From a virus: a stretch of 20,020 bases of DNA. This document shows positions 7,818-20,017 of the stretch, one piece after another. How positions within the stretch are numbered: the stretch's first letter is position 1; every line of letters begins with the position of its first letter. Under the pieces are notes generated by a model. It was not told where the DNA came from and searched no databases. It saw nothing but the letters and a program-made list of their open reading frames with translations. The position numbers were made by a program, and so were the translations under genes. Location of the stretch: the IMG/VR virus record IMGVR_UViG_3300032360_000066, positions 1 through 20,020 of that record; one strand, given 5' to 3'.

Positions 7818-9211
7818 TAAGATGTCCGAATATATAGGAGGTCATTACCAGTATCGAAATGAAACGAACCTACACCACCTGCATTACCCGTAGGTGCTGT
7901 ACTATTTGTAGAAAATTCCATAATTGCTATTGGGAACTTATCGTCTTGAGTATCTTCTGCCGTCCACCCAGTTAATTCTCCATCTGAACCCCAACTCAGT
8001 TTTGCGAAATTACCAGTAGTTCCAGCAGAATCAGTATACAATGAGATTCCACCACCATTTGCCCCAGTTGCCGCCGCCGCATCATTAGCGTATGCACTAT
8101 CAGGAGTACCAAGTACAATTTCCTTATCTTCTACTTCTAAATTTGCTGTACTAATAGTGGTTGTAGTTCCATTAACTGTAAGGTCACCTGCTATAGTTAC
8201 CGCTCCAGTTAATGTACTTGTTCCTGTTGCAGTAAAGTTTTCATCTACTGTAAAGTTACCTGCTGTATCTAAAAGATAACCAGAAGACCCAATAGACATA
8301 GCCGCATCTGCTGACAAACTTGCTTGTTTAGCACCGAGCTGAGTTTGGATATTAGATGATACCCCATCAAGATAGTCAAATTCAGTACCAGTTACACCAG
8401 TATCATACAATGTCTTTGCATAAATCAGGTCATCCACATCTCCAGTAAATCCATCAAGAGTATTTAGTTCTGCGGTTGTAGAAGTGATACCATCCAGTAT
8501 TGCAACTTCAGTTGATGTCAATAAAGCCAAAGCGGTAGCTGAACCAGTTTGGCAACTAGATAAAGACGTTAAGTCAGCATCCAAAGGTTGAATACCAGCC
8601 TCAGCTAAAGTTTTATTAGCCCAAGCATTAGCACCAGTAGAAAACAAAATCTCATTTGCCGCTGAAGAAGTAATAGTTGTATCTGTTAAATTTGCAACTG
8701 TTGATATATCAGCTGGTGTAGCCCAAGTCAATCCACCTGTATTACCTGACTGTGCTGATAAGAACATTCCATTTGTGGGAGAATTACTTACCACTAGATT
8801 ATCTTCATCTACTGAGTCTGATGCCATCTTAGCTAAGGTTATATTAGCATCAGTAATATTAGATGTTGTAACTGAATTATCTGCAAGTTTTCCTTGAGGA
8901 ATTTGTTCATCTCCAATAATATCACCTGCAACTGCACCATCAGCCATCAAAGCGAGTGTTATCTGGTCATCCCCGATATGTGCTGTATCAATAGAAGCAT
9001 CTACATACATATCACTATCAACAGAGTTATCTGCCATCAAAGCGAGTGTTATCTGGTCATTAGCTATGTGACCTGTATCAATAGACCCATTTGTTATTTG
9101 ACCTGAATCAACTGCATCTAAAGTTGCCAATGCACCTTGACTTGCTAATGTTGCCGCCTCTTGGGCTATTTTACCCGAAGCTGATTCAGTTACTACTTTT
9201 GTCCATGCCAT
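7817..9211 (-). CDS. Repeat-containing tail fibre or virion structural protein
   Basis: A 464-residue protein. The N-terminus (MAWTKVVTESASGKI) resembles that of the 1110-residue fibre. Residues 37-135 are near-tandem repeats built on D-x-S-I-D-T-x-H-I-x-x-D-Q-I-T-L-A-L-M-A-D with a 30-residue period. Further on come two fibre-type motifs, I-L-D-G-I-T-S-T-T-A-E-L-N-T-L-D-G at about 239-254 and Y-L-D-G-V-S-S-N-I-Q-T-Q-L at about 280-292. Residues 342-368 (DLTVNGTTTTIS then VEDKEIVLG) match a segment very common in marine phage structural proteins. The ATG follows AGGAG by 6 bases. It is likely an adhesin or fibre acting with the larger one. Confidence 0.9.
   Translation of the reverse strand: MAWTKVVTESASGKIAQEAATLASQGALATLDAVDSGQITNGSIDTGHIANDQITLALMADNSVDSDMYVDASIDTAHIGDDQITLALMADGAVAGDIIGDEQIPQGKLADNSVTTSNITDANITLAKMASDSVDEDNLVVSNSPTNGMFLSAQSGNTGGLTWATPADISTVANLTDTTITSSAANEILFSTGANAWANKTLAEAGIQPLDADLTSLSSCQTGSATALALLTSTEVAILDGITSTTAELNTLDGFTGDVDDLIYAKTLYDTGVTGTEFDYLDGVSSNIQTQLGAKQASLSADAAMSIGSSGYLLDTAGNFTVDENFTATGTSTLTGAVTIAGDLTVNGTTTTISTANLEVEDKEIVLGTPDSAYANDAAAATGANGGGISLYTDSAGTTGNFAKLSWGSDGELTGWTAEDTQDDKFPIAIMEFSTNSTAPTGNAGGVGSFHFDTGNDLLYIRTS
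8943..9060 (-). repeat. Exact 28-base direct repeats within the 464-residue fibre gene
   Basis: The same 28 bases occur at 8943-8970 and 9033-9060, exactly 90 bases apart. They encode the D-Q-I-T-L-A-L-M-A part of two consecutive 30-residue repeats. Such identity at DNA level, not only protein level, suggests a recent duplication or gene conversion. Confidence 0.85.
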
Positions 9212-16778: not shown

Positions 16779-18254
16779 TTAAGCTACTTTCCAGCTATTA
16801 GTGTTAGCGACATATCGCTCTTTAGTGTTATCTAATTCTACTTCTTCTGTATGATTTGGTCTATAACATTTTTTCATAGCATAAAACATACCATCTAATA
16901 AATCATCATGTTTACCACGAGGATATAGTAGAAGTTCATCTTTTAATTCTAGCATATCTTTCTTCATATACATTTTACCTTGTGCAAAATAAGGCTCCAT
17001 TGTTTCAAGCCTAGATGATTTTGAAGTACGTGGAGATTCTTTTATTTCTAATCCAGATATAAATATTTTTTCTTCATCACATCTTGTTCTTAGATACTCC
17101 CTCAGCATCTCCTGATAGCCAACTGATTCTATACGCACCTTTGATGGCTTATACATTTTAAACCATTGTATAATACTTTCAGCTAATTTCATGGGCGTGG
17201 CTCTTTTGCGGTAATAAGGTAGTATATACCTATTATTATCTTTGTCTACTGCTATCGGCATAATAACTGAATAGTCAGCAGTCTTGCGTATTGAGGATGC
17301 AGGGTCCACGCCCATGAAAATATTAACTGGTATCTGATTCTCTCCGTCCTTGAGGAAGTGATTGCCATCATCGTCTATGCTATAATCGTAATTATGGTAT
17401 TTTAAATACTTCTCGCTGAATAGTTGGTCTTCATCTCCCACTATCTGGCATAGATACTCTCTATAGAACACAGATACACGTGCGATAGATTCTAATTCTT
17501 TCTTCTTCTGCTTTAATTTCTCTATAGGTTGCCACTCTTCCCAGAGTGCTATCTCCTTATCCATGTCTGGACTGAAGTGCATATTCGTCCATCCGTCCAT
17601 TTCCTTTAAGACTTCTACTAGACACCTCTGGTGTTGTGGTGTACCGATAACTGCTATCTTTCCACGTATAGGGTCTAGTGATGGAATTGCAGATTGGAGC
17701 AACCATCTTAGATTCTGTTCCATCGCTTCTGCTGTTTTAGTGTTATTCTCGTCTTCTGGGTCATCTACTACAATGAGTGTAGGTCTTTGACTTCCAACCT
17801 TGATACCGCGTAACTGCTGACCAGTACCTTTGCAGATAATCATAGTGCCATCCTTGAGCTCTATCTCTGCCTTAGCCCAAGTTTTTGCTGAGTGCTGCCC
17901 CCAGTAGCCATAGATAGCTCTTAATTGTTGACTGTAATCTAGCATATCCTTAATAGTGCCTAATAGTTTTATGGCATGGTCTTGTGTACGAGACACTAAG
18001 ATAATTAATTTCTTCCCCTCATGGTTCATTAAATGGAACAACGGGTAAATTCCCCCAACTATAGATGACTTTGCGTGTCCACGAGGGGCGATAATGTTCA
18101 CTTGTTTCTTATCGTCATTCATAAGAACATCAGCTATTTTATAGTGGAAATCAGGGGATGCTACAGAAAACATATTTGAACTGACGATACGTCCAAATAA
18201 TATCATATTATCTTTTAATTTAGCCTTCAGTAGGTTATTTTCTTGTGCAGTCAT
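16779..18254 (-). CDS. terL: Terminase large subunit
   Basis: A 491-residue protein with both activities intact. In the N-terminal ATPase domain, the Walker A-like motif APRGHAKS is at 56-63, Walker B LIVVDDPED at 160-168, and a coupling motif IGTP at 203-206. In the C-terminal RNase H-like nuclease domain, MGVDPASS gives D317, RIESVG gives E375, and KHDDLLDG at 448-455 gives the final acidic cluster. The length is normal for the family. It packages DNA into the prohead through the portal and cuts concatemers. The ATG overlaps the preceding stop as ATGA and has no strong ribosome binding site of its own, so it appears coupled to the 104-residue gene. Three small genes separate it from the small subunit, which is unusual but known in compact phages. 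Confidence 0.97.
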   Translation of the reverse strand: MTAQENNLLKAKLKDNMILFGRIVSSNMFSVASPDFHYKIADVLMNDDKKQVNIIAPRGHAKSSIVGGIYPLFHLMNHEGKKLIILVSRTQDHAIKLLGTIKDMLDYSQQLRAIYGYWGQHSAKTWAKAEIELKDGTMIICKGTGQQLRGIKVGSQRPTLIVVDDPEDENNTKTAEAMEQNLRWLLQSAIPSLDPIRGKIAVIGTPQHQRCLVEVLKEMDGWTNMHFSPDMDKEIALWEEWQPIEKLKQKKKELESIARVSVFYREYLCQIVGDEDQLFSEKYLKYHNYDYSIDDDGNHFLKDGENQIPVNIFMGVDPASSIRKTADYSVIMPIAVDKDNNRYILPYYRKRATPMKLAESIIQWFKMYKPSKVRIESVGYQEMLREYLRTRCDEEKIFISGLEIKESPRTSKSSRLETMEPYFAQGKMYMKKDMLELKDELLLYPRGKHDDLLDGMFYAMKKCYRPNHTEEVELDNTKERYVANTNSWKVA

Positions 18255-18777: not shown

Positions 18778-18952
18778 ATAGGAGTCCGCTTATCTCCATA
18801 TCCCTAAGTGCATTTAGTGCCATTTCTGCTGTCTGAGCATTATCTATCTCAGTCATGATGGCTATAACATGAAGACACCTGACGGCTATCTCTATCTGAG
18901 CCTTCATCTGCTCTAGTTTCTGGTTGAATATATCAGATTCGCTCTGTATCAT
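18752..18952 (-). CDS. Small helical acidic protein, unknown
   Basis: A 66-residue protein (MIQSESDIFNQKLEQMKAQIEIAVRCLHVIAIM...). It is predicted almost entirely helical, with a heptad-like first half and an acidic C-terminus (YDFYEDEE). It overlaps the small terminase gene by 20 bases and the Cys-rich gene by 26 bases. The ribosome binding site is a weak AAAGAAG. Nothing in it points to a biochemical activity. Its conserved-looking frame inside a densely overlapped packaging module suggests it is real, but the evidence is the arrangement, not a family match. Confidence 0.7.
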   Translation of the reverse strand: MIQSESDIFNQKLEQMKAQIEIAVRCLHVIAIMTEIDNAQTAEMALNALRDMEISGLLYDFYEDEE

Positions 18953-19748
18953 CTTTTTCTTCTTTGCGTTTTAGAACCAGTTTCTTCTCTTCTTCTTGTG
19001 TTATCTGGTCTAGAATCTTTTTAGTATCAATCATTTCTACTGTATCTGTAGTTATGAGCTTATTCGGCTTCATCTCCAGTAAATCCATAATATGGTCATT
19101 AGCTTTTAGAAAATTACCCACATCACCCTTATGTTCTGCCATATCTAATGCTTTTACGATGTTATCTACAGCAAATTCTTTGTTTATTGCCTTATCAGAC
19201 AATATCTCTTTTACTTTCTTCTCTACCATCATCTTAACTCTTTTATTTTTTAGAAATCTTCGTACAGTTGCTCTGGGTATCTCACTATCTGGTCTATATA
19301 CCTTTCCTAGGGTGTCAAAGTCTACTGAACCATTCAACATCATGTTAGCATAGGTATTTATAGTGTTAGTTCCCCTAGTGCTCTTAACTTCATACTCATC
19401 CCATGTCTTAGCTGGGTTTACCTTAGTATACTTCTTATAAGCATGGTTTAATTTGAAATTTATTTTTGCAGACGGACTACACCACCCAACTCCACCCGAT
19501 AATTTAACGAATGTCTTGATGTTTCCATTCTTATCGGTATAATCCTTTCTAGACAAGCATCTCATAACATAATCATCATCTGTTATTGCATAATCCCCTT
19601 CATTAGCATCTTTCCAGTCACAATAGCCCATACTGGAGTCAGCATCTGCTTCTTCTTTAGTATAGATGTTAAATCGTTGCTTTTTGTGCTGAAATAACCT
19701 ATCTATAACTATCAAATTAATTTTTCCCTTACTTATAACAAGTAACAT
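18933..19748 (-). CDS. Probable terminase small subunit
   Basis: A 271-residue protein from an ATG at 19748. The N-terminal portion contains FNIYTKEEADA, then WKDANEGDYAITDDDYVMRCLSRKDYTDK. A central HTH-like region reads IPRATVRRFLKNKRVKMMVEKKVKEIL (about 174-200). The C-terminal part has the helical pattern DNIVKALDMAEHKGDVGNFLKANDHIMDLLEM with a charged tail, which is typical of DNA-binding small terminases. Its position upstream of terL agrees. The start is uncertain: the frame stays open to a TTG at 19808, but that would translate the palindrome cluster. A TTG at 19715 after TAAGGG (spacing 11) is another good candidate. It would recognise the packaging site and regulate the large subunit. 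Confidence 0.75.
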   Translation of the reverse strand: MLLVISKGKINLIVIDRLFQHKKQRFNIYTKEEADADSSMGYCDWKDANEGDYAITDDDYVMRCLSRKDYTDKNGNIKTFVKLSGGVGWCSPSAKINFKLNHAYKKYTKVNPAKTWDEYEVKSTRGTNTINTYANMMLNGSVDFDTLGKVYRPDSEIPRATVRRFLKNKRVKMMVEKKVKEILSDKAINKEFAVDNIVKALDMAEHKGDVGNFLKANDHIMDLLEMKPNKLITTDTVEMIDTKKILDQITQEEEKKLVLKRKEEKDDTERI

Positions 19749-19815
19749 GTTATCTTTTACATGTAGAAGATATCTTTTACATGTAAAAGTACTCTTAAGA
19801 GTACGCAAGTACTTG
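19744..19815. repeat. Cluster of tandem palindromes with 20-base direct repeats
   Basis: Seventy-two bases contain six adjacent or overlapping palindromes: AACATGTT (19744-19751), CTTTTACATGTAGAAG with one mismatch (19754-19769), AAGATATCTT (19767-19776), CTTTTACATGTAAAAG (19774-19789, perfect), GTACTCTTAAGAGTAC (19789-19804, perfect) and CAAGTACTTG (19806-19815, perfect). The TATCTTTTACATGTA core is also a tandem direct repeat with a 20-base period (19751-19770 and 19771-19790, 18 of 20 identical). It lies between the stop of the upstream gene and the small terminase gene. This fits protein-binding sites such as an operator, or a packaging or terminase recognition site. Confidence 0.85.
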
Positions 19816-19819
19816 TATT

Positions 19820-20017
19820 CTAATCCGTACTCTCAATATCCTGCTTAGTACCAACGTGCATTGCAATAGAACGCTGTATTATCTGGTATTCAGCTTCCAA
19901 AACGTCCACATCATCTTCGTGTAGAGCCTGAAAGCTCTCTATCTCGTCCTCAGTCATCTCTACCTTAGTCCACTTACCAGTCAAGGGGTCGAATACTTCC
20001 ATCTTCTTTTTCTTCAT
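19820..20017 (-). CDS. Small acidic protein, unknown (start near window edge)
   Basis: A 65-residue protein (MKKKKMEVFDPLTGKWTKVEMTEDEIESFQ...). It begins with a lysine run, then F-D-P-L-T-G-K-W, then an acidic helical segment ending GTKQDIESTD. The 'D-P-x-T-G-K-W-x-x-x-x-M-T-x-x-E' opening is typical of small hypothetical phage proteins. The first ATG is three bases from the right edge, so the ribosome binding site cannot be seen and a longer N-terminus is possible; an internal ATG (MEVFDPL) is also possible. Its stop is followed almost at once by the palindrome cluster. Confidence 0.7.
   Translation of the reverse strand: MKKKKMEVFDPLTGKWTKVEMTEDEIESFQALHEDDVDVLEAEYQIIQRSIAMHVGTKQDIESTD

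Follow-up and report, generated by a model that had tools for sequence, protein, structure and literature searches.

A palindrome array of changing sequence beside a small-terminase-like gene: a possible packaging-initiation region in uncultivated marine tailed phages

What keeps a dense cluster of palindromes in one place while its letters are replaced from lineage to lineage? The question arises from the window, i.e., the whole stretch of DNA analysed here, a 20,020-bp IMG/VR virus fragment with its genes on the minus strand. In minus-strand order these are p65, a 65-aa open reading frame of unknown function (19820-20017, minus strand), the palindrome/repeat array, a gene resembling that of a small terminase subunit (TerS; 18933-19715, minus strand), the large terminase gene (TerL; 16779-18254, minus strand; phrog_38, Terminase_6C), and genes for a P22-type portal and an SU10-type capsid. 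The array fills the entire gap from the p65 stop to the TerS start (19716-19819, 104 nt, minus strand). Our tentative answer is that it could be part of a packaging-initiation region that docks the terminase in an uncultivated marine tailed-phage family.

Direct reading of the sequence revealed six palindromes within 72 bases. Five are perfect, including two of 16 nt, and the sixth has one mismatched pair. They comprise the perfect TAACATGTTA (19743-19752), CTTTTACATGTAGAAG with the mismatched pair (19754-19769), the perfect AAGATATCTT, flanked by two CATG sites (19767-19776), the perfect 16-nt palindromes CTTTTACATGTAAAAG (19774-19789) and GTACTCTTAAGAGTAC (19789-19804), and the perfect CAAGTACTTG (19806-19815). 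A tandem direct repeat of two 20-mers (19751-19770 and 19771-19790), identical at 18/20 positions (90%), lies in the same stretch; no strand is assigned to the palindromes or the repeat. A preliminary description had reported both the six palindromes and the 20-base repeat, which we recovered, but had counted only four palindromes as perfect. Its view that chance was unlikely to produce such a stretch holds as well: counting palindromes with arms of 5 or more, 58 of the 104 nt of the gap are covered, whereas 2000 dinucleotide shuffles averaged 5.3 covered nt and never exceeded 44. The array is also the top 80-nt stretch of the window by palindrome coverage, with 58 bases versus 15 in the runner-up, and a window-wide motif search for regulon-like further copies found none.

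The array is fully intergenic, since relatives place the TerS start at the equivalent of TTG 19715 in the window, where they carry GGAG followed by ATG or TTG. Judged by that position, two other starts are unlikely, namely TTG 19808, which is given in the list of open reading frames and would make the array intragenic, and ATG 19748. The TerS-like protein had no significant sequence-family or profile match, and a fold search of its model against the PDB returned nothing significant. The AF2 model (mean pLDDT 74) predicts a beta domain, a tri-helical HTH (residues ~113-156) and a long helical hairpin (residues 158-212), and a Foldseek search of viral models (BFVD) returned many neighbours annotated 'Terminase small subunit' with probabilities of ~0.85-1.0. 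As expected of a TerS, the predicted HTH precedes an oligomerisation helical hairpin and the gene adjoins that of TerL, with the portal gene beyond. By predicted fold and synteny, the gene downstream of the array looks like a small terminase gene, in agreement with the preliminary description. TerL itself matched the NCBIfam T7-type model with an E value of 7e-22, yet fell under the cut-off of that model. Its nearest cultured counterparts, at ~25% identity, come from Halcyone-cluster Paenibacillus phages, which are DTR phages. No relatives of TerS were found among isolates in 50,697 phage records, and a TerL scan of GTDB genome contigs, conducted as a host search, yielded no relative.

A palindrome/repeat array occupies the equivalent gap in at least 132 related loci with 66 distinct arrays, none from a cultured phage; because these loci are redundant, with sampling tilted toward closer relatives, locus counts overstate independence, and the 66 arrays, 73 p65 genes and the tree are better units. 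The letters of the array vary by lineage (TACATGTA, GTAACwGTTAC, TATAGCTA, ATTACTATATAGTAAT, ACTAATTAGT and others). Its period drifts as well (16, 17, 18 and 19/20 nt among relatives), which speaks against the earlier suggestion that a 20-base period reflects cooperative binding on one face of the helix. Arrays were also present in further relatives with TerS identities as low as ~42-50%. Perfect palindromes exceeded shuffles at p<=0.05 or near it in 13 of 17 sequence clusters; in the other four (L024, L031, L038, L084) they did not, the dyads being imperfect or gapped. Distant relatives carry different arrays again, some of which are significant solely as gapped inverted repeats, and the arrays of L205 and L265 are significant neither in this form nor as perfect palindromes. 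Alignment of relatives, which the preliminary description had advised, thus showed an unusual form of conservation, in which position and symmetry persist through replacement of the letters.

On the TerS tree, the motif classes required 10 changes (minimum 8; shuffles average 41.7), an exact turnover count that depends on the signature patterns by which we defined the classes. As the classes follow the tree, the arrays were inherited with TerS and turned over several times. Among the longer contigs containing the array, about two thirds had it first or joint first in palindrome density. The preliminary description had also suggested looking for further motif copies; in contig-wide searches of the longer contigs tested, the class motif was essentially confined to the array locus, with no sign of a regulon, while the looser GTAACAGTTAC class also gave scattered two-mismatch matches elsewhere. 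No satellites carrying the array or its surrounding cis block without a terminase were found. A layout that is kept while its letters are swapped by lineage is probably where a packaging machine or a late-gene regulator lands.

The array abuts an element that has hardly changed. Element B, GAGTANGGATTA, reads GAGTACGGATTA in the window (19821-19832, minus strand) and spans the p65 stop codon, and all of its positions but N are invariant across 73 distinct p65 genes. Considering that synonymous positions are fixed, that the sole free site N is a second codon position, and that in L266 the element sits past the stop codon and is still present, element B is under DNA-level rather than protein selection. 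A further copy, A (GTANGGATT; GTAAGGAGT in two close relatives), lies on the same strand 443-576 nt upstream of B in 109/109 informative loci, a count that leaves out L156 (a self-hit) and in which many contigs appear twice. In a second locus set, copy A was present in 47/53 and element B in 60/64. Element B has been lost in L223, L267 and L209, where an array-like stretch persists. The window ends at p65, and copy A and the conserved block described below are known from relatives alone; in L003, whose TerS is 99% identical to that of the window, copy A precedes B by 504 nt.

Between copy A and p65, past the edge of the window, L168, L184, L077 and other relatives carry a highly conserved non-coding block ~70-250 nt before p65 (GAACTCAAC..GGGGGGTA..CTCTCACACACATTCT..AAGAG..TGGAAC). 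Covarying structure was looked for in this block and none was found; as its sequence is conserved without covariation, the block is probably a DNA-level control element. Gene insertions in four relatives (L028, L205, L219, L246) leave the array beside p65 and element B, not beside TerS, so that the tie between array and TerS is indirect.

Four contigs of 44.6-47.1 kb represent closed genomes of ~44-47 kb, since their ends overlap exactly (77-300 nt) at differing break points. In complete relatives, late genes run rightward from p65, which is the first gene of the late operon, and early genes run leftward. More than 100 loci run through the array region, and no pile-up of contig ends was seen there. 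The preliminary description had proposed a candidate packaging site of the pac or cos type. The spanning loci, together with the four circular contigs that break elsewhere, argue against a cos site. The circular contigs do not separate headful from terminal-repeat packaging, because both assemble as circles.

Of the roles considered, packaging leads, since the array is fixed within a conserved cis block adjoining TerS. Sites of the pac type lie within the TerS gene or next to it, as the array does. Dyads point to a DNA-binding protein that is symmetric and multimeric; TerS, a conserved phage protein predicted to bind DNA, is encoded next to the array, and the array classes have been inherited with it. 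Moreover, a motif found essentially at a single locus is easier to reconcile with one docking site than with a regulon. The tandem dyad sites next to the TerS gene would dock the terminase complex, most likely as a TerS ring that binds cooperatively, while GAGTANGGATTA beside the array and its upstream copy would mark the point at which the complex is placed or cleaves. Copies A and B might serve headful (pac) packaging or might form both ends of a terminal repeat of ~0.45-0.58 kb. We infer that TerS (or TerL) binds the array and that packaging starts there.

If TerS is the binder, how could it follow such turnover? Its predicted recognition helix is ~91% identical even in TerS pairs of 50-60% identity, and only 8% of the pairs in that identity range share a palindrome half-site. 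A simple HTH-to-sequence reading is unlikely, since the predicted recognition helix is near-invariant while the palindromes differ. TerS would rather read DNA shape or bend, or use its variable N- and C-terminal parts, and not the HTH helix alone. By analogy, shape reading would fit, as proposed for SF6, where TerS recognises the bend of the DNA and shows little local sequence specificity (PMC4737164). Recognition through TerS segments other than the HTH would also fit, as in HK97 (PMC11331095), and so would a different binder. More speculatively, and in our judgement improbably, the recognition signal might be the arrangement of tandem flexible dyads plus the invariant 12-mer instead of the letters, with the 12-mers as cut sites bounding a terminal repeat. 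If so, the letters would be free to turn over while one near-invariant TerS HTH keeps recognising the array.

Among known systems, the pacL-pacC-pacR sites of SPP1/SF6 are alike in that they lie at and before the TerS gene, including a non-coding part, and offer several TerS contact points, with bent-DNA reading and weak local specificity (PMC4737164, PMC6316719, PMC9611059). The array differs from them in its short dyads that have turned over between lineages and in its invariant 12-mer with a distant copy. The R sites of lambda-type cosB are likewise multiple TerS sites near the terminase genes with sequences that differ between relatives, and their differences go along with packaging specificity among lambda, 21 and N15 (PMC4669245). 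However, in lambda-like phages differences in both recognition helix and R sites explain specificity, whereas in the array family the helix is near-invariant and the circular contigs argue against cos. The Halcyone-cluster phages have DTRs of 377-378 bp, similar in size to the A-B spacing of 443-576 nt, and a terminase ~1.3 kb from the left end (PMC6070908). Checked as a model for copies A and B, the DTR boundaries of Tripp showed no obvious shared motif and no palindrome array, which makes the idea of the two copies as repeat ends a guess.

The array could also be an operator or promoter of the late operon, a doubtful but possible explanation in which the palindromes are sites for regulator dimers acting from TerS onward and the 12-mer and its copy are promoter-like. 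Dyads are the classic form of a dimer operator, the late genes begin with p65, and the block sits at the divergence of early and late genes, with copies A and B in many lineages preceding AT-rich TATATA-like DNA in the late direction. Outside the lineage of the window, many TerS starts lack a Shine-Dalgarno sequence, and the final repeat may extend into the start codon; the pac site of SPP1 likewise overlaps promoters, together with the TerS RBS and gene start (PMC6316719). However, most repressors also mark their own promoter, whereas the motif is near-exclusive to this locus in the tested contigs, and neither the motif at other promoters nor a conserved cognate regulator was found in the contigs checked. 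In addition, the window stretch has no sigma-70-like site, and genes inserted between array and TerS are tolerated. The early region of G008 (L101-L103) encodes an AbrB-like protein of 71 aa and a winged-helix-like protein of 105 aa, with an Erf annealing protein and DUF932 nearby. The AbrB-like and winged-helix proteins were rejected as array binders as they are not conserved; they are missing from the other contigs checked, whereas the array is family-wide. A conserved but unrecognised regulator is possible.

In the lambda ori, tandem dyad or direct repeats of ~18-20 bp adjoin AT-rich DNA. The array is built alike, with tandem dyad units of 16-20 nt and AT-rich TATATATAA in most lineages, and the SPP1 origins, oriL and oriR, consist of direct repeats and an AT-rich unwinding element (PMC6316719). 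The phages also encode a DnaB-like helicase/primase and the Erf annealing protein. A replication origin with initiator-bound iterons, whose specificity turns over with the initiator, is nonetheless quite unlikely, considering that the array lies beside the terminase and not the replication genes, that no initiator gene was recognised near it, and that GC skew tracks gene strand only, with no extra switch opposite the array. The motif classes track TerS, although any vertically inherited protein would do so. A role of the repeats in the transcript, as RNA hairpins or as a terminator behind p65, is very unlikely. In many lineages, folding of the sense RNA falls below that of shuffles, and on the minus strand of the window GTACTCTTAAGAGTAC (19789-19804) doubles as one weak terminator-like stem followed by TTTT. 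However, folding is just as good for the antisense strand and few G-U pairs occur, which is what DNA dyads would give; moreover, the T-tract is missing in most relatives, perfect palindromes allow little loop, and an Rfam search with the array gave no match in the relatives searched. Least likely of all, the palindromes could be functionless products of neutral AT-rich repeat slippage or mutational hairpin correction. Complete sequence turnover and the four of 17 clusters not above shuffles for perfect palindromes would agree with this. Against it, the array holds one fixed place in otherwise gene-dense genomes of relatives down to ~42-50% TerS identity, adjoins an invariant element, and, in some two thirds of the longer contigs that contain it, has the top or tied palindrome density.

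It is still debated how the small terminase recognises viral DNA (PMC9611059, PMC4737164). In the array family, the putative docking sites have been naturally replaced eight times or more against a near-constant predicted HTH, which makes sequence versus shape reading directly testable. The cis block of ~0.7 kb (copy A, conserved block, p65, GAGTANGGATTA and array) also provides a recognisable marker for locating packaging or control regions, as well as possible hitchhiking elements, in uncultivated marine phages.

Several smaller features were observed in relatives. L028 carries an inserted small ORF with a VEIKIR (E-x-K) motif at 8330-8890, the block is interrupted by a lipoprotein-like ORF in L205 and L219 and by an HNH-like zinc-finger ORF in L246, and a 194-aa ORF separates block and p65 in L209. 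A minus-strand tRNA gene lies close to the block in L138 (862-940). In G008, G010 and G013, the late operon ends with a protein of 2,665-2,883 aa of unknown function with only a weak PHROG match. Finally, L178 (a 73,241-bp contig) and L182 (88,986 bp) are far longer than the closed genomes of ~45 kb and may be chimeras, concatemers or larger relatives.
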